DNA of 64,000 nt, from contig CP142456.1 in the NCBI GenBank assembly GCA_038049695.1, positions 43,132,001 through 43,196,000 on the forward strand, read 5' to 3'. The notes under the pieces were generated by a model, which saw only the letters and a program-made list of their open reading frames with translations, did not search any database and was not told the DNA's origin. Positions 13,823-56,233 of the stretch are shown here, piece after piece; position 1 is the stretch's first letter, and each line of letters opens with the position of its first letter. A program made the translations under genes and the position numbers. The DNA comes from Cinnamomum chago. Taxonomy: Eukaryota > Streptophyta > Magnoliopsida > Laurales > Lauraceae.

Positions 13823-16800
13823 TGTTAGACCCCGACCCAGACCAAGTCGATTAGTGTGCGATTAGTATGTGTTTAGTTCTAAGTGGGTTTAGTTGTTGTT
13901 GGGTTTGAAGTGATTAGTTAGTTTTGGGCATAGCTTTGGGAATTTTGAGAACGTCTAGTATTAGTCAGACACACTCAGGAAGGCCTGGGTGCACGTGTAA
14001 GCTTGGGAAGATCGTATCGGTTTTCGTGTGAGTGTGATTTTGATTTCATTTGAATGATCTTGTTATGTGTTACAACTTTCGTTTTAAGCCCATTCGTGTT
14101 CGAAGCCCAAAAACCCATGTTTTGGCCCAAAGAGGGTAAAATTGTCCTTTATGCATAAATCTGGACACAATTTTCGAAATCTCAAAACCATGTCAAAATT
14201 ATACTTTTTGGAAAGTAGATATTTCGACGATCATTTTATCCTTCTTCGTCGAAGTCATCCGAGGCCCACAAGATCATGTTTTAGCCATTTCAAGTTCAGG
14301 TCACATGGGGCCCATGAGTCATCACTTAATCCCCCTTTCCCTCTTCTTCCACTCACTTTACCAAATCTCTGCAATTTCTGAATCTAGGGCAAGGGAAAAC
14401 CTCTTTTCTTCTCCATCTTCCCCACCTTGTTTGATCTAGCTAGGGAGCTCCAAAGAAGATTCTAAGATTACCATTTTCTTCATCTCCTTGCAAGCTCTCC
14501 ATTGATACAAGTTTCTTGAGTTTTTAAGTTGGGCAAGAACTCCATTTCTTTCCCTCCCTCTTGTTTGGCCATTTCTAGGTAAGGGTTTCCACTCATACTC
14601 TCCATTGAGTCATTTTAGTTCCTTGAGAGTATGTTTTTCATGTTTTCAAACCCTACTTGGTAAATGGGTTCCTTGTTTCCATTTTTGAGTGAGTTTTGTG
14701 TGTTTTCTTGGTTTTGCTTGTAGTGTGGGATAACTTGTGTGAAGTGCTTGAGGAGGAGTGTTTAGCATTTGGGCAAGGCAAGTAATCTCTATAGGATCAT
14801 TGTGCATGTTATTTTAGCTACATTGTTGTTTTGGAAACTTTGCATATGAATGTGTTTACAAGCTTCATGATTGCGTTTTGTTGGTTTTTGGATGTGTGTT
14901 CTACCCTTGAAGAGCCTATATGCTCAGGGAATACAAGAGGAATGAGAAGGAATGGAAAGGAGGAAGGAAAAATGTGAAATCTGCACTGAACCGCACACCC
15001 GTGCATTGGCGGTCAGCTCCACGGTCAGCTAGCGTCTAGCCGCCTGTGTACACTGCGGCTAACCGCATGCTGACCGAACTCAGCGGTTACTTTTCCAGAA
15101 GCTAGCATTTTCATCTGGGATCAGCGGTCAGCACCACGGTCAGCTCACGGCTAACCGCCAGTCTCGCTCGCGGTTAACCGCAAGCCAACCGTGGACTGCG
15201 GTTTCTTCTCCAGAAGCTGGCATTTCGATTGTGGTTCACGGTCAGCTCACGGCTAACCGCCAGTCCCACTCGCGGTTAACCGCAAGCCAACCGCGCAAAT
15301 ACGGTTCCTTTTCCCAAGAGCTAAGTTCGATTTGCTCTCCAGCGGTCAGCCTGGCGGTCACCTTGCGGCTAGCCGCCATGTCCCAGTTAGGCTAGCCGAC
15401 ACCTGACCGCGAGGTGACCGAAATTCACTGTTTGTGTATTTTGAAGAGTTTTGCAAGAATGAAAAACTAGAACATGTTAAGTGACCTTTAGCTTAATATT
15501 GTGCACTCGAAACCCAAGATGTCTTTAAACTTCTGGGGCACCAATTTTATTTAATTTCCAACATCGGGGCTTCGATTTCACAACGACCATCCAAAGGTCA
15601 TTACGTGTGCTTGATAAGCCTTGTGTTCGTGCTTTAGTTTTGATAAAATGAATATCATCGTGAACTTGTTTTGAAGTGTTAGTACAAGCTTGTTTTGGGA
15701 GTTTTGTTTCAAGAGAAAAGGGGATCTCTTCCTAAGCGTGTTATGCATAATTATTATGCCCGTGCTAGTCGTGCTCGTCGTGTTTTGATAAGTGATTTCC
15801 CCCTTTCTATCTCGACGTGCTTTGATCGTGCTTCTCGTGTTTTGTGCATTCATGAATTAAGTGAACACCACTGAGCTTAGACTGCCCTTTCGGTTTGATC
15901 CGCTGTCTGGGGGTCTTTAAACATGTGGACTGTCTGCAGACTGGTCGTGTATTTATTACACATCGTGCGTGTCCGGTTCCGCGGCCGGAATTCCCGTCTT
16001 TGTGGGAAATCGTGTCGTGTTTATATTATGTATATCGTGCTTGTCGTGCGTGCTTACTCTTTTCATTATATAACTGATAGAGAAAGGATGGGCTCTTTGT
16101 GGATTGTAACTATTCATGATATATTATGTACTCACGCTAGTTTATTTTGTATCTCAGCTTTGTTCGTATTCTTGAAAATGTATCTCAGTTTTGATAGTAC
16201 TTCATACCAAAGATTTGCTCACATGTTTTCTCTAAATGTTATTGTTCATGTTCATGCCTACATTGATTACCTGCCAAACCGTCGTGTTTGACCCTTGTTT
16301 GTTGGTGCCCAGGTGCAGGAGACGTTGCCTTTGAGGAGGAGCGTCAGGAGGAGGCTTGTGAGCCAACTCCCGTGAGAGAGTGGCAGCCCGACGATGTCAT
16401 TTAGATGTCGGACTGGTTCTCGAGTTTCGTCACCTTTAGTCTTGGGGTTTCTTTTGGTTATTTTGAGATTGTATTGACCTTTATTGGTCTCTTATGGGCT
16501 GTACTAAACTTAACTTACTTTCGTGTTAAACTTATAACTTGAACTATGTTTGGGAATGCCATGATAACTCTTTTCTTTGATGCTATGTCTTGTTATTAAA
16601 TGTTATAGCACTTAAATATTTTATTGGTGCTTATATTGGTGTGTTTTGCTACACGCTTCCGCAATCGTGTACGTGTGAGTCAGATCCCGTGTCTTTGGGA
16701 ATCCTCACCGCGGGAACCTGTGGGAAAACAAAATCTTCAATAGTAGTAATCATCACCAAATCGCGTCGCGGGCCCGGGGATCCGTTCCGGGGTCGCGACA
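13823..16800 (+). mobile_element. solo LTR, 2.98 kb, inside gag of the young element
   Basis: It starts TGTTAGACCCCGACC and ends GGGTCGCGACA, flanked by AAAGT at 13818-13822 and 16801-16805. A U3 hairpin lies at 14223-14253, a palindrome cluster of GCGGTTAACCGC / GCGGCTAGCCGC type at 14990-15430, and the hairpin CAAAC/GTTTG at 16275-16290. A GC-rich inverted repeat forms the 3' tip. The closest relative in the window is 52809-55701. Confidence 0.93.
14990..15430. repeat. palindrome cluster (GGTTAACC / GGCTAGCC type)
   Basis: Words such as GCGGTCAGC, GCGGCTAGCCGC, GCGGTTAACCGC and CTGACCGC repeat about 20 times with 15-40-bp spacing. A phrase TTTTCCAGAAGCTGGCAT or a close variant recurs between blocks. 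The equivalent cluster in the relative is at 54020-54345. Confidence 0.8.
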
Positions 16801-20070: not shown

Positions 20071-21813
20071 TGTTAGGAATTTTGTATTTGCAATTTGATG
20101 GATGCATTTTCACTTTAGCATCATTTGAATTTTCACACTTGCATTGTTTTAGAAAACCTTGAAATCTGGTTTTATACATGCATTGCTTTTAAGATTTGAA
20201 AAAAGTATTGTTTTATGCATGTTTTGTTTTTATACTTGGATGCATTGATTTTAGAATTCAAACTCTTTTGAAATCCTAATTCTCTGTGCATTACTTTTGA
20301 GAAATCATATTGAGAATTTAGGTTTGTGCCTTGCATACATTCATCACTTTCAGAATCTTTTTTGTATGCATTTTTATGTGAAAAGAGTTTTTAGAAATCA
20401 AGCTAGCCTATGTTTTAAATCTTCCAAATTATTTTAGGCTTTTTGTGTTTTATGTTTTTAAACATCTTCGTTTGATTTAAAACATGTTTCCAAGCTTGGT
20501 TTAGTGGCCCAAAAATCCCCACAAAGAAAAACCTTCAAATATGCAAAAGTTGGGAATTTTTGTCCCAGGGGGTGGTCCGGCAGTGTCGCCAGTCGACCGG
20601 CCCAGAGGTCCCGGTCGACCGGGAACACTGCAGGCCAACTGGGCCCCTGGAGCCCCAACGGTCATATTTTTGACCGTTGTGTGATCCCGGTCGACCGAGA
20701 CCTGTTTCCAGGTCGATCGAGGACTAGCCGTTGGACTGTTTTTCTTTATAGAGTCCATTCATTTCCAACCTTTTTTTGAGGCTTGAACCATGAACTTTTG
20801 AGACCATTTTGGAGCCAAAGAAAGGGGAAGAAGTTGGAAAGGCTAAGAGGGCTATTTGGAAATCAAATGCTTGAGTTTTAAAAAGGTACATCTTACTTAT
20901 CATTTTGATTTCCATTAAAATTAGAATCAATGCATGGTTAAATCTTTGTATTTTCTTTTATGCATGATTTCTAGTTTTTAAAGAGTTGTTTTGCAAACTC
21001 ATTACCATCTTTGGAATATTAAGAATGGTTTGCAAACTCTCTTGACTAATTCACATGCTCTTAGATTTTAATATTCATACAACTTGTTTAGTTCATTTCT
21101 TCAAAGTTGTTTCAATCTTTTATGTGATTAGTTTTCTCTTCAATCATCATTTTATAAGCTTTGATTTTAAAATGCATCATGCATTCATTTAAGAGCTTCA
21201 TTGTTGAAATTGATTGAAGAAAAGCATTCATACACTTGTGCACACACTTTAGCTCATTTAGTGTATGTTTGTAATTTGAATTACACTTTCATATTAGCCT
21301 ATGTAGAGGCAATTCAATTGTGCTTAAATTGTATCTCTTGGAGTGTTCTTTTGTGAAGACACCTTCTTAGAGAAATCATTCATTTGTAAAGGTTATTGCT
21401 AAGCCTCAGAAAAGCATCTTGTAAAGGTTATTGCTTAGCCTAAGAAAAGCATTTTGTAAAGGTTATTGCTTAGCCTAGAAAAGCACATTGAGAGGTTGTT
21501 GTTTAGCCTAGAAAAACAACATTGTAAGGGTTATTGCTTAGCCTAGTAAAAAGCATAAATAGTGGAAATCCGGTGGGGTGAGTGGATCACAAGCCGGTAG
21601 TGGACGTAGGCATTGAGGCCGAACCACTATAAACCTTTGTGTTGTGGTGTATGCATGTGGTGATTGTTTATATTAGCTTCCGCATCTTGTTTGATTAATC
21701 ATCACTTGTGACTAGTTTATGTTAAGAAGTTAAAATTAATCATAATTGGTCACATATTGTAGCTCACCCTATTCACCCCCCCCCCCTCTAGGGTTAGGAT
21801 CCCAAGACTTTCA
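20071..21813 (+). repeat. 3' LTR of the 7551-21813 element
   Basis: It is uninterrupted, 1743 bp, starts TGTTAGGAATTTTG, ends AAGACTTTCA and is followed by the duplication TCTCC. A GGTCGACC palindrome cluster lies at 20574-20736, then a TATA-like TTTATA. The stretch 21380-21560 holds a short tandem series built on GTTATTGCTTAGCCTA. Confidence 0.93.
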
Positions 21814-24476: not shown

Positions 24477-24504
24477 TTGCACTACTAGAAATTTGCTCTT
24501 TTGC

Positions 24505-24590
24505 TAATGAAAAAGCGGGTGGCCGCTTGTGGCGGTCGTAAAAGGCCCATTAGCGGCCGCCTATAGGCGAAACGGCGGTCGCTAAAGCCC
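24505..24590 (+). repeat. left subterminal repeats of the CACTA element
   Basis: Five or so copies of GCGG(T/C)CG(C/T)TAA-like words or their complement occur just inside the left end. They match the larger set at the right end. Confidence 0.75.
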
Positions 24591-24726
24591 TTTATAATCC
24601 CCCCACCGAACCCTCTTTTTCGTTCCTACTTCTTTTTTCCCCTGCTCCCAAGCTGCGCTCTGGATATCTCCTGTCTCCCGCGTTCTCTGCATCTCCTTCT
24701 CCTCTGCATCTCCGTCTCGCCTCCAT

Positions 24727-25095
24727 CGTTCATCTCTCTCTCTCCCTTTCCTCTCTCTCTCTCTCTTCTCTCTTCTCTCCCTCTCCTTCCCTTCTCTCCC
24801 CCTCTCTCCCTGCGTTCACCCTCTCTGCCCAGCCGCCAGCGCCCTGCTTCTCCCTTCCCACTGATTCTCTCTCTCTCTATTTACTTTTCTCTGCACGTCC
24901 CTCATCTCACGCCTTTCTCATCTCCTTTGGCATCTCCCTCCTACGCTCACGGTCTCCCTTGCCAGTGGATCCTCACTGTGCCTCTGGCATAGCGGGGCTC
25001 TCTCTCTCTCTCCGGCCGGCATCCATCAGGTATTCATCTCTCTCTACCTCACACGCACTGTCACTTTCTCTCCCTGCCTCTCTCTCACACATCAA
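24727..25095 (+). repeat. C/T-rich microsatellite leader in the CACTA element
   Basis: Long runs of (CT)n mixed with CCCT and CTTCTC on one strand, ending near a possible donor site at 25029 (CATCAG|GTATTC). This could be the 5' UTR of the transposon gene. Confidence 0.6.
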
Positions 25096-27372
25096 ACCTC
25101 TTTCCCTAAATCCCTAAACTTCTAACTCTATCCCTGATTTTTTTTAATTTTATCTTCTCATATTTCCATATTTTTGTGATCTGATTTAAATGTGGTGTAG
25201 ATGATTAGACTCATTATGTTCATACATGAATCTTATATTATGAAGCAGTTTATGAGTTTTAAATGTGGTTTTGATTTGGATTGATTTCAAATGATGTGAT
25301 TTGTGCAAAATAGTGTCTCTCACTCTTCACATTAGCTTCTTGGGTCTGTTCATTTATTTTTGTCTCTCACTCTTCATATTGTAGAAGATTAGAAGGGACA
25401 ATTTTTTTGAATGTGTTGTCTCAATCTGTAGGTGGATTTGTTGTTGTACATATAAAGGTTGTGTGGGTTAGTGTTAAATTTTCTATTTGTTTTCTTGTTC
25501 TTTAGATTTTGTTTAATTTTACTTGGCTGGCCCAATTGGGTTTGTTTTTTTTTATTTTACATTGATGATGGTTATTGATTATGAATAGTAATGTAGATGA
25601 GGAAGAAGAAGAAGAGAAGATTAGGACTTTGTGTGTGGCAGATAAGTTATGCAAAGTCTCATCATCTGATGATGTGGTTTAGCTACTAGTGTTCTTTCTT
25701 GAAATCTTGGCCACCTACTACTTTGATTGACCTGGATTAATTTAAAATAGGAATGATAGAAGAATGAATTATTGTGGGGATTTTGAAATGTCTTTTACCA
25801 ACCTGAATTCTTCAAATTTTAAAGCTAAAGACTCCAATAAGCATGTAAACTAAGGAATTAGTCTCCCAACCAAACAGGCTCTAGAAATATAGTTGCAGAA
25901 CAGGATGGATGCAGGGCAATCTATATGGGACTACCAAAAGCTAATATTCAATTGTGTGTCCCTATTTTGTATCAACAAGCAAGCAAGAAAATGAAGGAAT
26001 TTGTCATATGACAAAACTATGACAAAACCGGTATAAGTTTATTTAATTAAAACATTTTAATTATAGAAAATTATTTTATTTCAATTTAATTTGATTATCT
26101 CCAATTTGAACAGGTGCTACGAGCACGGGCCCATCTTCCAGCAGGGGGAGAAGCCCTGCTAGAGGGATCTGGACGTGGAATTCCGGTCATCCCATTGATG
26201 TGGAGTTTGATGAGACCTACCATCTGGTGGGTCCACATGCTCGCCAGCTCATCAGCCAGTTGGGACATATGGTTCGAGATCCATATGCATTCCTTCTGAC
26301 TACACTTGATTGGGAGGCATTCCCGGCGGAGACACTAGACCGTATCTGGCAGCAGGTTAAGGTAATAATTTAACATTTATCCTCGAGGTGTGTCAATTTA
26401 AACTATAACTTAATGAAAAATTATTTGTCCTTTTTTAGGACAATTTGAGGGCATGTCCTGAGCTCTTCCGGCCAATTTACATGTCAAAGTGCCGAAAGAT
26501 GTGGAAAGATCATAAAAATAAAATGAAGATGCTTCATTGGAAGCCACATCAGGATGCGCCCGACATAATGGTAAGAGTTTCGAACGGCATTCTCCCGGAT
26601 CAGTGGACTCAGCTCGTCCGATACTGGACGAGCGAGGAGGCAATGGTGAGAAACTTGTAAATTTTTTTAATTTTAGAAATTTACTAGTGACTAACGTAAC
26701 TAACAAAAATTAACTGATAAATGTTGAAAACAGAGAGAGGCTGCTACGAATGCGCGGAACCGCGCAGTGCAGGGTCCCGCACACAGGTTGGGGACTCGAC
26801 ACATCACCCAGGTCCGCCACGAGGTAAAAAGTTAGATCGTACATGTAATTTATATTTTTTTTGTTTTGTATGATAGTATACTAATAATATAACTCTCCAC
26901 CAAACAGTTGTGTTCTGAGGGTGTTCCGGTCGACAGGATGTCTGTCTGGATGCGTTCTCAAGATGCTCGCCACCCGGAGGTTGCAGCTATCTCCGTAAGT
27001 TTTTTTATATTGAACCGCTTAAATTATTTGTCTATTGCTGTGTCTTGTTATGCATGATAAGATATTAAATGAATCAACTACGCAGGCCCAGTATCATTCA
27101 CGCTAGAGGAGTTGCCCGAGGAGGAGCGCAGTTTGCCATCGCGGAGGGATGAGATATTCCACTCTGTTGTTGGCCGAGACGGGCACGGATAACACCCTCA
27201 CGTATGGGACGGGCATTCCACGCTCGCACATTGCGCGAGCGGAGTCATCCGGTGCTAGCTCCTCCCAGGGCTTACGCTTCCATATAGATGAGGAGGTTCA
27301 GGAGTTGCTGCAGTCCATGAAGTCAGCGATCAAAGAGGAGGTGACAAATGATGTCAGGGCAGAGATGAGAGC

Positions 27373-30300
27373 TGTGAGAACCCGACCCCTAATCTCTTGG
27401 ATTAGTGTTGTTTTATTTGTGGATTAGTTCTTTTAGTGGGATTAGTAGTTGTTGGGTTGATTTTGTGAGCTAGAATGGGTTTTCTTCTAGTTTTGGGCTT
27501 TTGAGTGCTTTGGTAGCCTGTGGGGCCCTTTGGGGGTTCCCTTTTCGGCTTTGCTTTTACTTGTGAGATTTTCCCGATTGGTTTCGTATCGTGTTTTTGG
27601 CTCATTGCATTCATCTTGAGGAATCCTACAACTTTCATGTTGATCCCATATCCATTTGAGAACCCGAAAACCGATTTCTTGGCCTTGAGGGCAAAACAGT
27701 CTTTTCATACCAAATCTGTACCCAAAACTCGATATTCTCGAAATCCGTGAAACATACACTTTTTGGAAACTAGATATTTCGACGATCATTTCTTCCTTCT
27801 TCGTCGAATCCATCCGAGGTCCCGAATTAGATGATTTCAGCCACCCAAATCCCTTAAGTTGTGGGACCCATTCTCACTTGCTTATAAAAGGAGACCCTCC
27901 TCCTTCATTCACTCAATTCACCATTGTCCTAGCTGAGCCTAGGGTTTCCCATTGTGCAACTTCTTCTTCTTCTTGCTTCTTCATCTCCAAGCCACACAAA
28001 TCTTGCACCAAACTAGAAATGGAGATCACCATTCTCTTCTCCACCTTGCAAGCTTTTCATGGATGCCATTAGAAGAGAAATCCACCAACATTGAGACCTT
28101 CCTTGAGCTTGTTCTTCTCATTTGAAAGTCATCCAAGTAAGTTCCCTCCTCAAATCTTCTAGATATGTGTTCTTCTTGCCCTTGAGAAGCTCCATTTTCA
28201 TTATTGGGAGTTCTTTCTTCTTCTTCATTGTTTAACCCATTTTTGGGTTGTTTTGGGGGTTTTTGTAGAGATTGTGGATCTTGAGCTTGAGAGGTGATTA
28301 GGAGCTTGATTTTCTTGATTAGAGTCAAAGGCAAGTGGTTGATTGGATCGTTTTGATTATTAACATGTTTTGGTGAAAATCTTGATTTCATTGATGGTTT
28401 TGGTAATTTTAATAGTTGTTTTTGATATGATAAATATTGATTATGAGATGTGCTATTGATGAGTTATTCTTTCTTGTTAAGCTCTTGAAAGTGCATGCAT
28501 CCTATTGTCAAGAATTTCAAATGGTTTCACATGAATGAGTTTTCTCCACCTTGAGTTTTATTGTGGATGGAATAGATGGAAAGGATGGAAATGGAGGAAC
28601 TTGAAATGAGGAGCTCTTTAGCTCATTTTAATGTCTTGGAAACATGTGTTTAAGCCCCCTTGTTTATAGTTTTATGTGATTGGTTATATGTTGGAAGGAA
28701 AGGAAAGAAAAAGAGAAAAATCAGAGTTCCCGGACCTGCACTGCGCCCAGGTCCGATCGATCGGACGTTATGGCCGATCGATCGGACTGACTTTTAACAG
28801 TAAGCATTTTTCAGCCGATCGATCGACCGACTCAAGATTATAACACAAGTCTATTTCCTTGGTTATCGCTAATTCTATTCCTTTCGAGGACTGAGTAGGT
28901 TGCTCGATGTTTCCGGATTAATGTCATGCCTAGGATGGACCGTTTATAATCTTGATTCTTGCTATTGTAACATCTAGTACTACCCATAAGCTCATGTTAA
29001 GATTTTAAAATAGTAAAAGTGCATAAGGAGCCCGGAATGTCTTCTAACTCAAGGAGTACCAAGTAATTGTCATAATCGACATACGGGACCCCTATTCACT
29101 TAAATAGATCTTGAAACCGATATGTTTACCCAAAATTGTTATAGTTCATTGTTTCACCTCTTTTCCCGAGACTTGCATTACATGACTTGTTTTCCCGAAA
29201 GCATTGAAGTTACTCTAGTAACAGTTACTTGTCCCGAAGTGCATTGCACCACATGATATATTAGTGTGCCCTTGAGCACCCCCGTCTTGCCCGACTGATT
29301 ATATATTTATACTTGATTTACTTGCTTTGTCTCGATTGTATTTGACCTATGAGTCGGCACCACTAAGCTTGGATAACCCTGTTGGTCTGATCAACCGACT
29401 TGGAGATCCCCCTCTTGTCCCGCCAGCTGCAGCTTGGATCCCGCTACCCGGTTATTACCGTGGTCTTGTCCCGATACTGCAGATTGCTACTGTGGTCTCC
29501 GATGCCCGGCTCGCTATCGTGGTCATGTATAGTATATGTATATGCATTCATGAGATCCCCTGTTTCTCCTCACCTCGAGTGACTGAGATCAGGGCCTAGT
29601 ATATTTATATGTATTGATATGAGATCCCCTGTTTCTCCTCACCTCGAGTGACTGAGATCAGGGCCTAGTCTTGCTCTATCGCTTTAGTGATAGAGGACTT
29701 AGCTTCTTGTGGTTGCCATCTTGCCAGTTTCCGATTCCTTGGATACCCGACATGTTTTATATTGCTTTTATGTTTTCTGATAAATGATTCGTTTCCTTTA
29801 TGAAAGTTGTTATTTAAACAAGTGTTAATATTCTCCAATGTAAATTCAGTTATTATTATATTGCCTTCTATTCTTTGTACCCGCACGTGTTTTAAATAAA
29901 CGTCGGTTGGGCGAATAACCATGCTCTTACCTATGTTTCACACGATCAATGATTTTACTTGATTTGTACGATTGCCCATGTTTTAAAGGAATACCCGAAT
30001 TGTTAAATATCCGTGCTTTGTTTTAACGACATTTGGTTCGTCAGATCCCTAGGTTTAACTGTATTTTAAATGAATACCCGAATTGTTAAGTATCCGTGCT
30101 TTGTTTTAAATGACACTTGTTTTGCTAGATTCCTATGGTTATACCTGTTTCAAATGATTACCCGAGTTATTTAATATCCATGCTTAGAAACATGTTTTAA
30201 ATGACACGTGTTTTACCAGATTCCTATGTCTACACCTGTTTTAAATGAATATCCGATTTGTTAAATACCCATGCTTTGAAATGTGTTTCAAATGACACTT

Positions 30301-31219
30301 GTTTTGCCCGATCACTATGTTTATACCGGTTTCACATGAATACCCGATTTGTTAAATATCCCTGCTTTGAAATATGTTTTAAATGAACCTTAGCTTCGCC
30401 AGATTTCTTGGTTACACATTGTTTTAAATGAACGTTTGTTTGTCAAACTTCTATATTTACACATGTTTTAGACGAAAACCCGATTGTCAAATATCTATGC
30501 CTTTACAGATTATGTAAATGAACATATGCTTTATTAGATCTTCAGGCTTTTACTCATGCTTGAAAAGAATACATGTTTTGTCCGAGATTCCCGACTTTGC
30601 ACCCGTTTAATTATATGCAGCACTTGATCGATTAGCATGATTTATTATATGTTTTATTCTTTACTATATTTGTGATCTTTTCATCCACCTGCCAGACCGT
30701 CGTGTCTGACCCACTACTTTTGGTACTCAGGTTCAGATTTCTTCGCCCCGAGTTGAGTGTTTTGTTGGCTGTGGAGCCATGCCTTGCAGGTTGTTTTGTC
30801 GGCTATGTCATGTAGACATTGAGCTTGACATCGGAGCTACGTCACATTTGGGTAGTAGTTTATAGCTTATTGTTGTATGGCTTTTATTAGCCTTTTTCTT
30901 GGGTTTCTTAATTAATGTACATTGATAATTGTAACTTGAACATATATGGGAATGTAATATCCTGTTACTGTCAGCTCAGTAATTTATTGTGATGGTTTAC
31001 TCCAGTCTGATATGATTCTTGATATGATAGCTATATGCTAATGGTTTAGTGCGATGTGGAATCCGATGGCCACGGACTCCGGGTCGCAATGCCACAAAAG
31101 CTTCCGCAAAATATTCAGAATGTGTTGTCTTCACACACGCGGATCCTGGGAGAAGTAAAAACATATTTATGCTAAATCCCATCTCCCGCCCCCGAGGTTC
31201 TTGTTTTGGGGGCGTGACA
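27373..31219 (+). mobile_element. solo LTR, 3.85 kb, inside the CACTA coding region
   Basis: It starts TGTGAGAACCCGACC and ends GGGGGCGTGACA, with AGAGC at 27368-27372 and 31220-31224. It is a close relative of 8235-12078 (3847 against 3844 bp). A U3 hairpin lies at 27778-27808, TATA box at 27883-27890, palindrome cluster of CCGATCGATCGG type at 28740-28830, conserved block at about 29006-29054 and the CAGAC/GTCTG hairpin at 30693-30708. The stretch 29575-29670 holds a short duplication of CACCTCGAGTGACTGAGATC. Confidence 0.93.
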
Positions 31220-31650
31220 AGAGCCAAGCTGAGAGCGGAGATGGCAGAGCTTGAGGCTCCTCTATCACAGAGTCGCGGCCCGCTCGCTTCAGACCAACCA
31301 CCCACTACTCGGTTAGTAAAAAAAAATTCCTGTACGTTTAACTTGTCATTTATGTCATTAATGCATCAATATTTATGTTTTTTTTATTTTTTTTAACTGT
31401 ATAATAAATAATTACAGGCACCAGATGCTGGCAGTGGCCATAGGGCTAGACATGACTTCGGTGGAGAGGGCAGTCATGATCCAGCAGGCTCGACTGATCC
31501 TGACCAGGTAAAATTAATTTTTTAGTTCAAGATTTCAACATGTATAGAAATTTGTTAAAATGTGTTAGAAATTTATAGATTTTGAAACTTAAAAAAGTTA
31601 AACACTTAAAACTTGATGGCCAAGGGCCCTTACTCATTCCTGACTTGCAG

Positions 31651-31700
31651 GAACTGACGGAACGAGAATCCGACTCCTAGATTGCTCGTAAAGTTGAAAC
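31651..31700 (+). other. first 50-nt exon-like segment of the array
   Basis: It is bounded by GACTTGCAG and GTAAGTTTAAG, both good splice sites. Its phase joins the exon ending at 31508 (GAC CAG) to the exon at 38598 (G TTT GAG AGC) without a frame break. This copy has an in-frame TAG, but those at 31829-31878 and 32007-32056 are open, so an original 16-codon exon is likely. Confidence 0.6.
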
Positions 31701-33233
31701 GTAAGTTTAAGTTAGAACCATAACTTAAAACTTAGGAAACGAGCCTCCGGGGGGCCGAAATGAACAAACGAGCTTCGTTGCCTGTGAAACTTGATGGGCA
31801 CGGGCCCTTACTCATTCTTGACTTGCAGGAACTGACGGAACGAGAATCCGACTCCCGAATTGCTCGTAAAGTCGAAACGTATGTTTAAGTTAAATCGATA
31901 AGTTAGAAATTAGGAAACTATCCTCCGGAAGCCCAAAACGAGCAAACGGGCTCCGTTGCTCGTGAAACTTGATGGAACCGGGCCCTTACTCATTCATGAC
32001 TTGCAGGAACTAACGGAATGAGAATCCGACTCCCGGATTGCTCGTAAAGTCGAAACGTATGTTAAGTTAAACCGTTAACTTAGAACTTAGGAAACTAGCC
32101 TCCGAACGCCCGAAAGTAGTAAACGTGATCCGTTGCCTGTGAAATTTTGATGGGCACGGGGCCTTAGTCATTCCACACCTTAGGGAACTGAAAAAACTCG
32201 ATTCCGACTCCCGGATTGCCCGTAGAGCTTAAACGTAGGTCTAAGTTAAACCGTTAACTTAGAACTTAGGAAACTAACCTCCGGACGCCCGAAACGAGCA
32301 AACGGGCTCCGTTGCCCATGACACTTAACGGGCACAGGCCCGTAGTCATTCCTCACCTGTAGGAACTGACGGAACTCGATTCCGACTCCCGGATTCCTTG
32401 TAGAGCTTAAACGTAGGTTTAAGTTAAACCGTTAAATTAGAACTTAGGAAACTAGCCTCCGAACGCCCAAAACGAGTAAACACGCTCCATTGAAACTTGA
32501 CGTACACGGGCCCGTAGTCATAACACAATTGCAGGAACTAAAGAAAGTCGATTTCGACTCCCGGATTGCCCGTAGAACTTAAACGTAGGTTTAAGTTAAA
32601 CCGATAACTTAGAACTTAGGAAACTAGCCTCCGGGCCCCCAAAACGAGCAAACGTGCTCCGTTGCCCGTGAAATTTGACGGGGATGGGCCAGTATTCATT
32701 CCTCACCTGCGGGACCTGACGGAACTCGATTCCAACTCGCGGATTGCCCGTAGAGCTTAAACATAGGTTTAAGTTAAACCGTTACCTTAGAACTTAAGAA
32801 ACTAGCATCTGGACGCCCGAAATGAGCAAACGTGCTCCGTTACCCGTGAAACTTGGCAGGTACGGGCCCGTAGTCATTCCTCACTTGCAGGAACAGACGA
32901 AACTCGATTCCAACTCCCGGATTGTTCGTAGAACTTAAACGTTGGTTTAGGTTCAACCGTTAACTTAAAACTTAGGAAACTAGCATCCAGGCGCCCGAAA
33001 TGAGCAAACGTGCTCCATTGCCCTTGAAACTTGACGGGCACGGGCCCGTAGTTATTCTTTAAGTGCAGGAACTGACAGAACTCGATTCCGACTCCCGGAT
33101 TGCCTGTAGAGCTTAAACGTAGGTTTCAGTTAAACCGTTACCTTAGAACTTAAGAAACTAGCATCTGGACGCCCGAAATGAGCAAACGTGCTCTATTACC
33201 CGTGAAACTGGATAGGCACGGGCCCGCAGTCAT

Positions 33234-34861
33234 TGAAAGTCCAAGACCGAATCCTAGAGGGGGGGTGAATAGGATGAGCTCTAAGAACCTAGACCAATTT
33301 GAATTCTTTTAACTTTTAAGTCAATTAACATTTGATGAAGATTAATTATCTTATGATAGATAGGAATCTCTAAGATAAGCATACACAAGGAATCATCAAC
33401 TATAATCTTCATACAACCAAAAGTAAATCATTCATGTAAAGAGAGTAAAAGATCAATCACCATGACAAGCTCATTTATAGTGGTTCGGCCAAATTGCCTA
33501 CATCCACTCCCGATACACTTATCGGTATTCATTAACTTCAATTAAGGTTTAGGATCACCTCAAACCTTACAAACAACACTATGCTTTTCAAGGCTAAGCA
33601 CAAACCTTTACAAAATATGCTTTTCAAGGCTAAGCAAAAACCTTTACAACATACAATTTTTCTCTTAAGAAATATGCCTAAGAAAGCACGGATTAAGAGA
33701 GCAATGAAGTGCAATGGAGTGCCTCTAAATAGGCTAATTAGAAAGTGAAAACTCAACTCCTAGAAATATGCATAACAATGACCAAGTCTATGAATGATGC
33801 ATTTTCTAGAAATAACTCTTTCTCTTTGAAAAGATAAAACCTTGAAAGATGCAAAGATGTTAATCAAATATATGAGAAAGAGTTGTATGTCTAACACATG
33901 TAATTAACAATGAAAAATAACTTGTTTTCAAAAAGGGATGTTCTAAAGTCTAACAAGTTGATTTTGAAAACAAGAACACAAAATCATGTGAAACATAGAC
34001 AATATGTTGTATTCATAACATATGAGATTACTAAAGTATTAAGCATGTTATGAAGGACAACATTTTAATAGGAAAGCAACTTGTTAATCATGTATTGAAA
34101 GAGATCAAAGATTTGAAACAAAACATGATTTTAAAAAGACTAGGATTAAAGAAAGCACACCCATTTGAAGATCAAAGGTTGACTTAATGGAATGGCTTCA
34201 TAATCCCTTTGAAAATGCTCTTGAGAAGTTGCAAACAATTGGCCTCAAAAGTCCCTCCAAGATCAGCAACTTTCTTCAACCAAAAAGCCACTTTTTATAA
34301 AGAAAAAGTTGCCAACGGGTAGTCCTCGGTCGACCTGCACACAGGCCTCGGTCGACCGGGAAAGCACAACGGTCATATATCTGACCGTTGGAAGGCTCTG
34401 CTCAAAACTGCATTTAAAAGCTGCAGTGTTCCCGGTCGACCGGCAAGCTTGGCCCGGTCGACCGGCAACACTGGCAGATGCCCAGAATTTTGAAAAATGA
34501 GTGAAACATGAAACTTTTGAGGGCATCTTCCAGGGGACTTTGAGACAGAAATACCAAGCAATAAATCATGACTGAAAGAAGATGAAAACAGAATTTTTTA
34601 AAGCCATGAAAACTCCAAATCAAAATAATGATTTTAAAGTTAGAAACTTTGGAAAGGTTGGATGATTTTTGAAACCAAAAACTCCATGATCTTAAGAGAT
34701 AAACTGAAATGAAAACCATGCATATCAAATGATAAATACAAAGATCAAGAATGAGAAATATGCATGATGATCCTATGAATAAGACCATGAGTGAATGAGA
34801 GGACAAGCTTTATGAAATTGAATGCATCCTATCAAATTGCAACAAAACAAAAACTCTAACA
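33234..34861 (-). mobile_element. copia-like solo LTR, 1.63 kb, inside the 178-bp array
   Basis: On the minus strand it starts TGTTAGAGTTTTTG (at 34861) and ends GGACTTTCA (at 33234), flanked by GTCAT at 33229-33233 and 34862-34866. It is related to the LTRs at 6040, 7551 and 20071. The GGTCGACC palindrome cluster is at 34320-34470. The array resumes in exact register after it (178 bp between anchors once insert and duplication are removed). Confidence 0.93.
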
Positions 34862-37800
34862 GTCATTACTCACTTGCAGGAGCAGACAGAACTCGATTCG
34901 GACTCCCGGATTGCTCGTAGAGCTTAAACGTAGGTTTAGGTTCAACCGTTAATTTAAAACCTAGGAAACTAGCATCCAGGCGCCCAAAATGAGCGAACGT
35001 GCTCCGTTGCCCTTGAAACTTGACGGGCACGGGTCCGTATTCATTCCTTAATTGCAGGAAGTGACAGAACTTGATTTCGACTCCCGGATTGCTCGTAGAG
35101 CTTAAATGTAGGTTTAATTTAAACCGTCAATTTAGAACTTAGGAAACAAGCCTCCGGACGCCCGAACCGAGCAAACGTGCTCCGTTACTCATGAACCTTG
35201 ATGGGCACGGGCCTGTAGTCATTCCCCACCTGCCAGAAACTGACGGAACTCGATTCCGACCCTCGCATTGCCCGTAGAGCTTAAACGTAGGTTTAAGTTA
35301 AACTGTTAACCTAGAACTTAGGAAACTAGCTTCCGGTCGCCCGAAACGAGCAAATGGGCTTCGTTGCCCGTGACACTTGACGGGCACAAGCCCGTAGTCA
35401 TTCCTCACCTGTAGGAACTGACGGAACTCGATTCCGACTCCCGGATTCCCTGTAGAGCTTAAACGTAGGTTTAAGTTAAACCGTTAAATTAGAACTTAGG
35501 AAACTAGCCTCCGAACGCCCAAAACGAGTAAACAGGCTCCATTGAAACTTGACGTGTACGGGCCCGTAGTCATAACACAATTGCAGGAACTAAAGAAAGT
35601 CGATTCCGACTCCTGGATTGCCCGTAGAACTTAAACGTAGGTTTAAGTTAAACCGATAACTTAGAACTTAGGAAACTAGCCTCCGGACGCCCAAAACGAG
35701 CAAACGTGCTCCGTTGCCCGTGAAATTTGACGGGGATGGGCCAGTATTCATTCCTCACCTGCGGGACCTGACGGAACTCGATTCCAACTCACGGATTGCC
35801 CATAGAGCTTAAACATAGGTTTAAGTTAAACCGTTACCTTAGAACTTAAGAAACTAGCATCTGGACGCCCGAAATGAGCAAACGTGCTCCGTTACCCGTG
35901 AAACTTGACGGGTACGGGCCCGCAGTCATTCCTCACTTGCAGGAATAGACGGAACTCGATTCCAACTCCCGGATTGCTCGTAGAACTTAAACGTTGGTTT
36001 AGGCTCAACCGTTAACTTAAAACTTAGGAAACTAGCATCCAGGCGCCCGAAATGAGCAAACGTACTCCGTTGCCCTTGAAACTTGACGAGCACGGGCCCG
36101 TAGTCATTCTTTAAGTGCAGGAACTGACAGAACTCGATTCTGACTCCCAGATTGCCTGTAGAGCTTAAACGTAGGTTTAAGTTAAACCGTTACCTTAGAA
36201 CTTAAGAAACTAGCATCTGGATGCCCGAAAAGAGCAAACGTGCTCTGTTACCCGTGAAACTGGATAGGCACGGGCCCGCAGTCATTACTCACTTGCAGGA
36301 GCATACGGAACTTGATTCCGACTCCCGGATTGCTCGTAGAGCTTAAACGTAGGTTTGGGTTCAACCGTTAATTTAAAACTTAGGAAACTAGCATCCAGGC
36401 GCCCAAAATGAGCGAACGTGCTCCGTTGCCCTTGAAACTTGACGGGCACGGGTCCGTATACATTCCTTAAGTGCAGGAACTGACAGAACTCGATTTCAAC
36501 TCCCGGATTGCTCGTAGAGCTTAAATGTAGGTTTAAGTTAAACCGTCAATTTAGAACTTAGGAAACAAGCCTCCGGACGCCCGAACCGAGCAAACGTGCT
36601 CCGTTACCCTAGAACCTTGACGGGCACGGGCCTGTAGTCATTCCCCACCTGCCAGAAACTGACGGAACTCGATTCCGACCCTCGGATTGCCCGCAGAGCT
36701 TAAACGTAGGTTTAAGTTAAACTCTTAACTTAGAACTTAGGAAACTAGCTTCAGGTCGCCCGAAACGAGCCAACGGGCTCCGTTGCCCGTGACACTTGAC
36801 GGGCACAAGCCCGTAGTCATTCCTCACCTGTAGGAACTGACGAAACTCGATCCCGACTCCCGGATTCCCTGTAGAGCTTAAACGTAGGTTTAAGTTAAAC
36901 CGTTAAATTAGAACTTAGGAAACTAGCCTCCGAACGCCCAAAACGAGTAAACACGCTCCATTGCCCATGAAACTTGACATGCACGGGCCCGTAGTCATAA
37001 AACAATTGCAAGAACTAAAGAAAGTCGATTCCGACTCCCGGATTGCCCGTAGAACTTAAACATAGGTTTAAGTTAAACCGATAACTTAGAACTTAGGAAA
37101 CTAGCCTCCGGACGCCCAAAATGAGCAAACGTGCTCCGTTGCCCGTGAAATTTGACGGGGACGGGCCAGTATTCATTCCTCACCTGCGGGACCTGACGGA
37201 ACTCGATTCCAACTCGCGGATTGCCCGTAGAGCTTAAACATAGGTTTAAGTTAAACTATTACCTTAGAACTTAAGAAACTAGCTTCTGGACGCCCGAAAT
37301 GAGAAAACGTGCTCCGTTACCTGTGAAACTTGACGGGCACGGGCCCGCAGTCATTCCTCACTTGCAGGAACAGACGGAACTCGATTCCAACTCCCAGATT
37401 GCTCGTAGAACTTAAACGTTGGTTTAGGTTCAACAGTTAACTTAAAACTTAGGAAACTAGCACCCTGGCGCTTGAAATGAGCAAACGTGCTCCGTTGCCC
37501 TTGAAACTTGACGGGCACGGGCCTGTAGTCATTCCTTAAGTGCAGGAACTGACAGAACTCGATTTCGACTCCCGGATTGCTCGTAAAGCTTAAACGTAGG
37601 TTTAAGTTAAAACGTTAACTTAGAACTTTGGAAACTACCCTCTGGACGCCCGAAACGAGCAAACGTGCTCCGTTGCCCGTGAAACATGACGGGCACGGGC
37701 CCGTAGTCATTCCCCACCTGCCAGAAACTGACGAAACTCGATTCCGACCCTCGGATTGCCCGTAGAGCTTAAACGTATGTTTAAGTTAAACCGTTAACTT

Positions 37801-38859
37801 AGAACTTAGGAAACTAGCCTCCGGACGCCCGTAATGAGCAAACGGGCTCCGTTGCCCGTGAAACTTGACGGGCACAGGCCTGTAGTCATTCCTCACCTGC
37901 AGGAACTGACGGAACTCGATTCCAACTCCCGGATTGCCTGTAGAGCTTAAACGTAGGTGTAAGTTAAGCCGTTAACTTAGAACTTAGGAAACTTGCCTCC
38001 GGACGCCCAAACCGAGTAAACATGCTCCGTTGCCTGTGAAACTTGACATGCACGGGCCCGTTGGCACAACACAATTGCAGGAACTGACGGAAGTCGATAC
38101 CCACTCCTGGATTGCCTGTAGAACTTAAACGTAGGTTTAAGTTAAACCGATAACTTAGAACTTAGGAAACTAGCCTCCGGACGCCCAAAATGAGTAAACG
38201 TGCTCCGTTGCCCGTGAAATATGGCGGGGACGGGCCCGTACTCATTCCTCACCTGCGGGACCTGACGGAACTCGATTCCGATTCCCGGATTGCCTGTAGA
38301 GCTTAAACGTATGTATAAGTTAAACCGTTAACTTAGAACTTAAGAAACTAGCATCCGGACGCCCGAAACGAGCAAACGGGCTCCGTTGCCTGTGAAACAT
38401 GACGGGCACGGGCCCGCGGTCATTCCTCAAGTGCATGAACTGACAAAACTCGATTCCGACTCTCGAATTGCTCGTAGAGATTAAACGTAGGTGTAAGTTT
38501 CTAAATTTTAATTGTAATTTCTACTTTTTTTATATTTAGAATAAATTGTCAATTTTTATAATTAATTGTTAATACTTATTTTCCTTTTTGTATTCAGGTT
38601 TGAGAGCATCGGATCCATCGCGGCACCCTACACGACCAATATCCTTTTTTTTTGTTTTTCTTTTTCTGTAATTGTAATGGATTTTATTTGTTGAAACTTT
38701 TGTAATGTTTTTAATATAATTAATATAAAACTTTCTTTTGTTATTAGTAACTTTTAACTGATGGAAGTAGTTGTATATAATATATTCAAGTACAGGTATA
38801 AAAAACAGGAAAAAATTTAAGAAATTAGAGAAATTTATTAAAAAAATTTATTAGTTTTA

Positions 38860-39250
38860 GCGACAGCCAATAAAGTAACTATTAGCGGTCGCTAATAGCT
38901 TTAAAAATTTTTAAAAATAAAAAAATTACAAAAAATAAAGTAATAGCGACCGCCATTGTAACATAGCGGTCGCTAATAATTTAAAAAAACTTAAAAATAT
39001 AAAAAAAGAAAAAAAAGCATTAGTGACGGCGTTTCGCTTTTTAGCGACCGCTGTGGAGGCCGCAAATGGTCATAAATTAAAAAAAATGTATTAGCGACCG
39101 CCAATACTTTTACGACCGCCACCTAGCGGTCACTAATACTTTTTGCGACGAAGCAGTTGCGTCGAGCTCTTTGCGGTCATTGGGCGGTCGCTAATGAGTA
39201 TTAGCGACCGCCAAAACACTTTTAGCGACAGCGTTTGGCGGTCGCTAAAA
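38860..39250 (+). repeat. right subterminal repeats of the CACTA element
   Basis: About a dozen copies of TAGCGACCGCC or GGCGGTCGCTA, in both orientations, separated by A/T-rich spacers. This zone is longer than the left one. Confidence 0.85.
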
Positions 39251-39271
39251 GTCATTTTTCTAGTAGTGTTG

Positions 39272-45780: not shown

Positions 45781-45790
45781 TTGTTCCCTC

Positions 45791-46250
45791 GTCGCAGTTA
45801 TGGAACTCGACAAAGGTCTCAGCTCGGTGACGGCACTAGCATGGAAGAGACCACAGCTCGGTTACAGAACCAGCTGCAAAGCGTCGCAATTATGGAACTT
45901 GACAAAGGTCTCAGCTCGAAGACAGCACCAGCATGGAAGAGACCATAGCTCGGTTACAGAACCAGCTGCAAAGCGTCGCAGTTATGGAACTCGACAAAGG
46001 TCTCAGCTCGGTGATAGCACCAGCATGGAAGAGACCACAGCTCGGTTACAGAACCAGCTGCAAAGCGTCGTAGTTATGGAACTCGACAAAGGTCTCAGCT
46101 CGGTGACGGCACCAGCTTGGAAGAGACCACAGCTCGGTTACAGAACCAGCTACAAAGCATCACAGTTATGGAACTCGACAAAGGTCTCAGCTCGGTGACA
46201 GCACCAGCATGGAAGAGACCATGACTCCGTTACGGAACCAGCCAACCTGG
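45791..46250 (+). repeat. 92-bp tandem array, five units
   Basis: The phrase GTCGCAGTTATGGAACTCG recurs at 45791, 45883, 45975, 46067 and 46159, exactly 92 bp apart. Each unit holds GACAAAGGTCTCAGCTCGG and CAGCATGGAAGAGACC. It is the reverse-orientation relative of the 94-bp array at 1690-2255. Confidence 0.9.
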
Positions 46251-52808: not shown

Positions 52809-55701
52809 TGTTAGACCCTGACCCAGACTAATTCGATTAGTGTATGATTAGTGTGTGTTTAGTCCTAAGTGGTTTTAGTTATCGTTGGGTTAGAAATAAT
52901 TAGTTTAGTCCTGGATATAGCTTTGAGAATTTTGAGGACGTTTAGTGTTAGTCAAACACACTCAAGAAGGCCTGAGTGCACGTGTAAGCTTGGGAGGATT
53001 GTATCGGTTTCCATTTTTAATTGTGATTTTGATTTCATTTGACTGATTTTACTCTGTGTTACGACTTTCGTTTTCAGCCCATTCATGTTTGAAGCCCAAA
53101 AACTCAAGTTTTGACCCAAAAGGGATAAAATTGTCTTTTATACACAAATATGGACACAAATTTCGAAATCTCAAAACCATGTCAAAAATATACTTTTTAG
53201 AAACTAGATATTTCGAGGATCATTTTATCCTTCTTCGTCGAGTTCATTCGAGGCCCACAAGATCATGTTTTTGTCAATGTAAGGTTCAAGTTCATTGGGC
53301 CCCATTTGCAAGTGTTTTTAAGTCAACTATTTCCCTCTTTTTATTCTCAAACCCTAACCCTAGAGCAGCCAAGAGGAGAAACCTTTTCTCTCCACTTTAT
53401 TTCTCTTGAATGATCAAGCTAGAAGACTCCAAATGGAATTCCAAGACCATCATCTTCTTCCTCTCATCCCAAGCTTTCCATTGATACAAATTTCTTGAAG
53501 TTTCTAGTTGGGCAAGAGCTTCATTTTCTTCCTTCCCTCTTGTTTGGCCTTTTCTAGGTAAGAACTCCAACCCATCTCTTTAATGGAACCTTTTTGGTTC
53601 CTAAAGATCTTGTTTTTCATATTGCAAACCCTTGTGTGAAAATGAGTTCCTTGTTTTCAAGATTGAGTGAGTTTTGTTTGGTTTTCATGGGTTTTGTAGT
53701 CTTTGGATTAGCTTGAGTGGAAGTGCTTGGAGAAAGTTTGTGACATCTTGGACTAAGGCAAGTAACCAATCTATGATGGATGATAGCATGTGTGCATTTC
53801 ATTTGTTTTCTTTCCATTCTTCTCATTTCATTGGAAATTTATGTCTTGAATGGAAAATTTGGGGATTTTGTTTTAGATTGGAGAATGGGAATGTAATGTC
53901 TCAATTTGTGCTATGGAATGTGTGTTTTATCCCTTGGAGAGCATGTAGGCTCAGGGAAGTGCAGGTTGAAAGAGAAACAAGAAGAAGTGAAAAAGAAAAT
54001 GTGAAAATCTGAATTGAAATGCACTTCCCGTGCAGTTTCGGTCAGCTGGCGGCTAGCCAAAATCCCCATTTCGGCTAACCGAGAGCTGACCGAGCTAGGC
54101 GGTTTCTTTTCCAGAAGCTGGCATGTGCATCAGGGTTCAGCGGTCAGCCCTACGGTCATCTTACGGCTACCCGCCAGGTCCCATTTCGGCTAACCGCAAG
54201 CCAACCGAAGTCAGTTCGGTTTCTTTTCCAGAGAACTGTGTTTGGACCTGGGTTTCGAGTGGTCAGCCTGTCAGTCAGTTGGCGGCTAGCCGCCAGATCC
54301 TAGTTCGACTAGCCGACATCTGACCGCGAGCTGACCGAATTTGACAACATTACCCATTTTGAAGAATATTTGTAAGAATGAAAACTAGAACATGTTAAGT
54401 GACCTTTAGCCTGATATTGTGCACTCGAAGCCTGAGATGTCTTTTAACTTCGGAGGCATCGATTCTCTTTTAATTCCAACATTTAGGGTTTCGTTCACAC
54501 AAAGATCAACCAAAGGTCCTTAAATGTGTTTGATAGACTTTGTGTTCGTACTTTAACTTTTGATACAATGATATCATTGTGTATTCGTTTTGAATGTTAT
54601 GTACTCGTTTTGAATGTTATGTACAAGCTTGTTTGAAGATTTGTTCCAAAAGTGAAAAAAGGGTCACTTCCTAAGCGTGTTATGCATATTAATTATGCCT
54701 TTTGCTAGTCGTGTTTGTCGTGTTTTGATAAGTGATTTTCCCCTTTTATCTCGACATGTTTAGAAAGTGTTTCGCGTGTTTTGTGCATTCATGAATTTAA
54801 GTGAACACCACTGAGCTTGGACTACCCTTTCAGTTTGATCCACTGTCTGGGGGTCCTTAAACATGTGGACTGTCTGCAGACTAGTCGTGTATTTTATTAC
54901 ACATCGTGCGTGTCCGGTGCTGCGGCTGGAATCCCCGTATATGTGGGAATCGTGTCGTGGTTATATTATGTATATCGTGCTTGTCATGCATGCTTGCTCT
55001 TTTCATTATAAATGATAGAGAAAGGATGGACTCATTGTGGAATGTAACTATTCATGATATTATAAGTATTCATGTTAGTTTTGCTTGTATTTTGAAATGT
55101 ACCTTAGTCATGTAACTGTTTACAATTCAGCAAAATGCCTTTATATGTTTCCTTAAACATTTACTACTTATATGCTCATGCCTAAATTGATTACCTGCCA
55201 AACCACTGTGTTTGACCCTTGTATGTTGGTGCCTAGGTGCAGCTGACGTTGCCTTTGAGAAGGAGCGTCCGGAGGAGGCTCTTGAGCCACTCCCAGTCAG
55301 AGAGTGGCAACCTGACGATGTCAACTAGACGTCGGGTGGGTTCTTGAGTTTCGCTACATTTTTTCATTGGGTTCTTTTATTATTTTGAGAATTGTATTGG
55401 CCTCTGTTGGCCTCTTATAGGATGTAACTAAACTTAACTTACTTTTGTGTTAGTCTCATAACTTGAATTATGATGGGAATGCCATGTTAACTCCTTTCGT
55501 TTGATACTATGTCTTGATATTATTTGTCATAGCACTTAAAAATTTATTGGTGCTTATCTTGATGTGATTTGCTACACGCTTCCGCAAACTTGATCATGTG
55601 AGACAGATTTCGCGTGTCTCGGAAATCCTCACCGCGGAAACCTATGGGAAAACAAACAAAACAATCGTCGCGGGCCCGGGGTTCGTTCTGGGGTCGCGAC
55701 A
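52809..55701 (+). mobile_element. solo LTR, 2.89 kb, inside the Cassandra LTR
   Basis: It starts TGTTAGACCCTGACC and ends GGGTCGCGACA. The flanks AGTAT and GGTAC agree at three of five bases; the intact Cassandra LTR shows the empty site. A U3 hairpin with altered arms lies near 53214-53243, a palindrome cluster at 54020-54345, and CAAAC/GTTTG at 55199-55214. It is sister to 13823-16800. Confidence 0.9.
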
Positions 55702-55870
55702 GGTACCCTTAACCACGGGGCGTAGCGTGTCAACCACGGGCTTCAAACGGTGAGTCTCCATTAGCCCGCATTGGAAATATCCAAGTCCTAAACATGAGCT
55801 TATAAGTCAAACCCCGTATTAACTTAGCATGAGGCCTTTTAAAACCGTGCGGCCCCGGAAATCGTAAAAA

Positions 55871-55919
55871 CTCCAAAGTTAAGTGTGCTCGAACGGGAAC
55901 AGTACTAGAATGGGTGACC
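55871..55919 (+). rRNA. 5S rRNA-derived segment in the Cassandra LTR, not a gene
   Basis: CTCCAAAGTTAAG.GTGCTC and AGTACTAGAATGGGTGACC match the middle of plant 5S rRNA, including the internal promoter boxes A and C in slightly changed form. It is only part of the 120-nt gene and sits in a retroelement LTR. Confidence 0.85.
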
Positions 55920-55980
55920 AACTGTCACAGCCCCGCCCAACTCAATATGAAATTGTCCGCTTTGGCCTACGTGCACGCGC

Positions 55981-56040
55981 GAGGACTTCCCAGGAGGTCA
56001 CCCATCCTAGTACTGCTCCCGCCTGAGCACGCTTAACTTT
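55981..56040 (-). rRNA. 5S rRNA-derived segment in the inverted Cassandra LTR
   Basis: On the minus strand it reads AAGTTAAGCGTGCTC, then AGTACTAGGATGGGTGACC and TCCTGGGAAGTCCTC, close to 5S rRNA positions of about 47-107. Box A and box C look intact. It is element sequence, not a functional 5S gene. Confidence 0.88.
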
Positions 56041-56233
56041 AAAGTTATTACAGTTTCCGGGGCCGCACTGTTTTAAAATGCCTCATGCTAAGTTAATACG
56101 GGGTTTGACTTATAAGCCTAGGGTCAGGACTTGGATATTTCCGATGCGGGCTAACGGAGACTCACCGTTTGAAGCCAGTGGTTAACACTCTACACCCCGT
56201 GGTTAAGGGTACCGCCTGGACCAAGTTCTCACA

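Follow-up and report, generated by a model that had tools for sequence, protein, structure and literature searches.

The window analysed here, a stretch of 64,000 nucleotides of Cinnamomum chago (assembly GCA_038049695.1, contig CP142456.1, positions 43,132,001 to 43,196,000 of the forward strand), holds a transposable element of the CACTA (En/Spm) superfamily with both of its ends present, and within this element, in the interval that separates the final two putative exons of a decayed Transposase_24 gene, lies a tandem array of 30 units of 178 bp that is the subject of this study (Table 1; all positions are those of the window). The element belongs to the CACTA superfamily by its terminal inverted repeats (TIRs), with CACTACTAGAAA at 24480 and the complement of this sequence closing at 39268, by the 3-bp target-site duplication (TSD) TTG just outside both ends, by its subterminal repeats, and by its Transposase_24 gene. 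The subterminal repeats are evident at the 3' end alone, as 24480–25480 contains one exact copy of GCGGTCGC and none of GCGACCGC. The Transposase_24 (Ptta/En/Spm) gene is the sole recognised gene of the element. The boundaries of its five exons and its frame break were read by eye, and the hand-joined exon peptides (26114–27372) match Pfam PF03004 with an E value of 1.2e-12 and 48.6 bits, the cut-off being 28.7. This gene is decayed: its fifth exon is frame-broken, and the coding sequence is then split by an insert, on the far side of which the interrupted exon resumes and two further putative exons follow. Of what the initial annotation, a first reading of the letters of this DNA, had claimed, the CACTA element, the gene strand and the placement of the array between two putative exons are upheld. 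Among the 18 open reading frames (ORFs) of at least 38 amino acids in the left arm (24480–26115), no match to Transposase_21, the DDE transposase, was found, in a scan that extended neither to the array and the right arm nor to the bulk of the inserts, and the only matches obtained there were two weak ones below the cut-off, both to unrelated families. As no transposase is found among the left-arm ORFs, the element looks non-autonomous.

Table 1. Features of the CACTA element and of the tandem array inside it (G+C content abbreviated GC; LTR, long terminal repeat).
Feature	Position	Strand	Details
CACTA element, both ends present	24480..39268	+	14,789 bp; CACTACTAGAAA...TTTCTAGTAGTG; TSD TTG
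Transposase_24 (Ptta/En/Spm) gene, five exons	26114..27372	+	26114-26361, 26439-26645, 26734-26823, 26908-26994, 27086-27372
TG...CA insertion, probably solo LTR	27373..31219	not assigned	3,847 bp; in coding exon; AGAGC on both sides
Rest of interrupted exon	31220..31311	+	ends ...KLRAEMAELEAPLSQSRGPLASDQPPTT
Next putative exon	31418..31507	+	90 nt; donor CAG/GTAAAA
AT-rich stretch left of array	31508..31608	+	101 bp; GC 0.178
Tandem array, 30 units of 178 bp	31609..38502	+	6,894 bp span; 5,261 bp without insert
Exon-like 50-nt segment of unit 1	31651..31700	+	flanks CTTGCAG (acceptor-like) and GTAAGT (donor-like)
Higher-order repeat copy 1	32321..35372	+	units 5-12; 1,419 bp without insert
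TG...CA insertion, probably solo LTR	33234..34861	not assigned	1,628 bp; where units 9 and 10 meet; flanked on each side by GTCAT
Higher-order repeat copy 2	35373..36791	+	units 13-20; 1,419 bp
Units 21-30	36792..38502	+	third copy begun by 21-24; best earlier matches of 25-29 0.90-0.93; 30 a truncated edge unit
AT-rich stretch right of array	38503..38597	+	95 bp; GC 0.137; ends in TTCAG
Putative last exon	38598..38645	+	
3' subterminal repeats around GCGGTCGC / GCGACCGC	38886..39246	not assigned	exact copies: 4 + 4 in 38600-39268

Tandem Repeats Finder, the check that the initial annotation had proposed for this region, reports the 178-bp array in two blocks, 31609–33234 and 34861–38499. With unit starts anchored on a 50-nt segment that recurs from unit to unit, the count is 30, the first start being at 31651 and the last at 38437. 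The description of the array as 30 tandem units of 178 bp is thereby confirmed, and its location holds as well; it is not an uninterrupted array, since a 1,628-bp insert splits it. When this insert is excluded, the spacing of the units is 178 bp in 24 of the 29 steps, 172 bp in two and 179 bp in three, and the pairwise identity of the 30 units averages 0.83, with a range from 0.70 to 0.99. The unit has a GC content of 53%, compared with 14–18% in the AT-rich DNA that adjoins the array on both sides and separates it from the putative exons at 31418–31507 and 38598–38645. Self-matches of at least 70 bp at E 1e-8 revealed no relative of the array in the rest of the window.

The array is a satellite with a higher-order repeat of eight units (n = 8, 1,419 bp), a level of order that the initial annotation left unreported. 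Units that lie eight apart are 0.962 identical (12 pairs within units 5–24), against 0.83 for pairs of the same units at all lags except 8 and 16, and when the order of the units was permuted 5000 times, no permutation reached the mean lag-8 identity of the full set of 30. The two full higher-order copies are identical at 1366 of 1419 positions. The units of deviating length conform to the same order, as those of 172 bp (5 and 13) and two of those of 179 bp (11 and 19) return at a distance of eight, which is what the higher-order repeat predicts; the exceptions are unit 21, with 178 bp, and a third 179-bp unit (25), which follows six after unit 19. Toward the right end, unit 25 is nearest (0.89–0.90) to units 9, 11, 17 and 19, the best matches of units 26–28 lie 6 or 14 units earlier, and unit 29 fits this two-unit shift less clearly, with 0.899 to unit 7 and 0.893 to units 15 and 26. 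The out-of-step pattern seen after unit 25 is what would be expected if unequal exchange had removed two units. In a tree computed with FastTree, the units cluster by their place in the eight-unit block, some of the inner groups being weak (support 0.3–0.7). Units 1–3 form a clade of their own (support 0.997), and the longest branch is that of unit 30; both fit the behaviour expected of array edges.

The insert within the array allows part of the order of events to be read. It is absent at the matching place in higher-order copy 2 and is therefore younger than the block duplication, and this order holds under every reading of the origin of the array, be it growth in place or capture. The block duplication itself may be older than the entry of the array into the element if the array was captured, and would have occurred within this element if the array grew in place. 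As to the other TG...CA insertion, the window also contains one repeat in two copies that are about 98.9% identical (7551–8234 together with 12081–13138, and 20071–21813), and the first of these copies is split by a 3.85-kb insert, parts of which are related to the insertion at 27373–31219.

We consider it likely that this satellite-like array grew inside the one CACTA element in which it is found, between the putative exons at 31418–31507 and 38598–38645 of the decayed Transposase_24 gene. A seed of approximately 178 bp would have been duplicated in tandem within the element, further units would then have been gained singly, by unequal exchange or a similar process, and later gains would have come in blocks of eight, from which the 1,419-bp higher-order repeat resulted. 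Units 1–3 and 30, at the edges, would have been least involved in homogenisation and would have diverged most, and the TG...CA insert would have entered the first higher-order copy afterwards. Both the exchange mechanism and the growth in place are what we infer, and the array, presumably without a function of its own, is most likely non-coding cargo that is carried along by the element. Several points weigh against growth in place: the GC content of the unit is unlike that of its AT-rich surroundings; the unit aligns no better than shuffles with the left flank (60 of 300), the right flank (266 of 300), the 90-nt exon (273 of 300) or the last exon (167 of 300); and the array may have entered the element as a ready-made satellite. 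As the unit lacks similarity to the flanks and to the two nearest exons, the source of the seed was not found inside the element, and this makes capture about as likely as a seed that was an exon. Growth from a local seed that was not an exon takes the rest of the probability.

Growth in place includes, as one particular form, a seed that was an exon, which is what the initial annotation had proposed: a penultimate exon of 50 nt would have been tandemly duplicated together with pieces of its introns and would have decayed to a satellite. We regard this origin as possible but doubtful. It is suggested by the splice-like signals around the 50-nt segment, an acceptor-like AG being present in 23 of the 30 units, a donor-like GT in 26, and both in 23. 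With assumed plant splice weights, the pair formed by this acceptor and the donor 50 nt further on is the top-scoring pair in the consensus, in units 1–3, and in 16 of the 30 units overall, on the strand of the gene. Out of 1000 shuffles, 32 equal or exceed the score of the consensus, 9 that of unit 1 and a single one that of unit 2, and the reverse strand shows no excess; furthermore, 9 of the 30 units, which are not independent of each other, score at least 14, compared with 276 of 4000 control stretches. However, genuine DNA makes a stricter control than shuffles: ordinary GC-matched 178-bp stretches of the window reach the pair score in 276 (consensus), 102 (unit 1) and 68 (unit 2) of 4000 cases. 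The acceptor-like and donor-like sites that had been ascribed to the units are real as motifs. Neither the splice dinucleotides nor the 50-nt segment exceeds the remainder of the unit in conservation; the conservation of the segment is matched or surpassed by 84 of 178 rotations with all 30 units and by 67 of 178 with units 4–29 (figures computed with insert boundaries 1–3 bases off).

The placement of the array also fits an exon. The left border of the array is 42 nt ahead of the first 50-nt segment and its right border 16 nt past the last, and in a one-unit state the AT-rich flanks, 101 and 95 nt long, would bring the introns to 143 and 111 nt, which is close to the 77–106 nt of the other introns of the gene (exon bounds as read). 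The DNA between the would-be exons, however, has a GC content of 47% (unit 1) to 52% (consensus), unlike the 19–29% of the five other introns, for which the exon bounds used were one base off the listed ones in four places. Spacers so poor in AT would lead one to expect the entire array to be retained or skipped, not single units to be spliced. The lack of similarity between the unit and the neighbouring exons likewise speaks against an exon. What sustains an exon seed at the tentative level stated is the placement of the array between AT-rich stretches of intron size, together with splice signals that are strand-specific; the control stretches, the GC content of the spacers and the missing conservation let it rise no higher.

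Another question is whether the units could be read as exons at all. The coordinates 31651, 31700 and 38598 are correct as first given; the upstream exon, which had been said to end at 31508, ends at 31507, the GT occupying 31508–31509. The first three segments had been described as being in the right phase to link the exons on both sides, and this requires phase 0 in the 90-nt exon; a splice at 31311 puts this exon in phase 2 instead. Even in phase 0, unit 2 is the only open one of the 30, and units 1 and 3 are among the 29 that contain stops. In phase 2, 25 of the 30 units stop at the third codon, while a direct splice from 31507 to 38598 stays open for 31 more residues, albeit into a T-rich tail; in phase 0, the same direct splice stops at the second codon. 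Stop-free units are few in any entry phase, with one in phase 0 (unit 2), one in phase 1 (unit 20) and five in phase 2. The amino-acid composition of the 90-nt exon weakly favours phase 2 (0.175 per residue, against −0.091 in phase 0; medians of 0.115 in right and −0.166 in wrong frames), contrary to the phase 0 that the initial annotation needs, in a scoring whose training set is small and whose right and wrong ranges overlap. The peptide of unit 2 has a composition of 0.235 per residue in phase 0, resembling the right frames of the gene, and of 0.41 in phase 2 with the stop passed over, which decides nothing. The proposal of an amplified penultimate exon is partly supported, with strand, placement and the splice-like pair on its side, and with spacer GC, control stretches, conservation and stops against it. 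It seems to us rather unlikely that a real 50-nt penultimate CACTA exon, together with its own splice sites, multiplied thirtyfold to become a satellite with an eight-unit higher-order repeat, such that an intron of the transposon now offers 23 candidate exons in which both splice dinucleotides are present. If it were true, a short exon with its splice sites could found a satellite, this satellite would have been caught at its birth from an exon, and the handling of more than 20 near-identical acceptor/donor pairs by the spliceosome would become testable.

Just as tentatively, the array may be a satellite of the host that moved into the CACTA element, the splice-like motifs then being accidental. 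The GC contrast between the unit and the adjoining DNA would agree with such a capture, as would the lack of above-shuffle alignment to the flanks and to the two nearest exons. There is also a precedent in CACTA elements of Chenopodium quinoa (scaffold 3389 and others), where a 16.5-kb element carries 32.5 units of 171 bp near its 3' end, an architecture that its describers, who favour capture, call captured, “or possibly generated” (PMC8978399). The two cases share a tandem array of about 30 units of about 170 bp, located downstream of the coding sequence and not far from the 3' end of the element; they differ in that the quinoa elements contain Transposase_21, in that their array is mostly treated as captured, and in that no exon-like unit is reported in the portion of that article available to us (PMC8978399). 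The monomers themselves are unrelated, as 189 (plus strand) and 59 (minus strand) of 200 shuffles reach the local score between the 171-bp monomer and our 178-bp unit. Capture is weakened by the absence of a further copy within the 64-kb window, hence of any positive sign of a host satellite, and it leaves the placement between two AT-rich, intron-sized stretches unexplained.

It is very improbable that the array provides additional binding sites for the element's own DNA-binding protein in the manner of subterminal repeats: in En/Spm, the product of the second gene binds the CACTA subterminal repeats, but the 6.9-kb array contains no exact copy of GCGGTCGC or GCGACCGC and, with one mismatch, one and none, versus four exact copies of each in 38600–39268, and we reject this explanation.

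A CACTA element with an internal satellite is of a kind already known, and the element described here is a further member of it, in which the higher-order repeat is clear and the exon-like unit unproved. Multimers of units of about 170–180 bp that are homogenised as blocks make up the higher-order repeats of alphoid and plant centromeric satellites. The array resembles them in its block-homogenised multimers and differs from them in having two full and further partial copies, inside a single transposon. A satellite that arose from part of a CACTA gene, which would be a likeness if the seed here was exon-like, is the Chenopodium satellite CficCl-61-40, seeded by a tnp2 fragment of about 40 bp from the CACTA-like element Jozin, and higher-order units are mentioned in that study, too; there, however, the transposase seed is recognisable with 82.1–94.9% identity, whereas here no parental single copy is known (PMC7320549). 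Other satellites born from transposable elements include PisTR-A, which derives from tandem repeats in the 3' untranslated region (UTR) of the Ty3/gypsy element Ogre; this case is similar in that the tandem repeats lie near the 3' end of the transposable element, and different in that they lie in the 3' UTR of a retrotransposon and not between exons (PMC9659126). We found no exon-seeded array in a CACTA element described in the literature that we could search in part, most subscription papers being outside the search, so that this is no proof of absence. Sequence searches were made in non-plant collections, where a miss says little: no relatives of the array were found with 1.5 kb of it (plasmids), with a 20-nt core (viral_contigs) or with a 35-nt core (genome_contigs), and the CACTA TIR pattern was absent from viral_contigs. 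The Transposase_24 exon peptides gave, in viral_contigs and genome_contigs, only a 12-residue match (L001), to a contig whose ORFs look phage-like by eye. The value of the locus is that within 7 kb it lets one read how a satellite is built in a mobile element, from its edge units and its higher-order repeat of eight units to part of the order in which events took place.

Other repeats of the window lie apart from the element. At 55702–56213, about 512 bp match their own reverse complement at 82%, as in a large foldback or a hairpin resembling a miniature inverted-repeat transposable element. Two arrays, 1720–2565 and 45790–46242, consist of 92–94-bp (and 44/89-bp) units, are related to one another in inverted orientation, and are situated within a longer match of 76%. 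Related tandem repeats of about 100–115 bp with CGGTTAGCCGC-like motifs are present at 15009–15425, 54039–54315 and 59354–59771.

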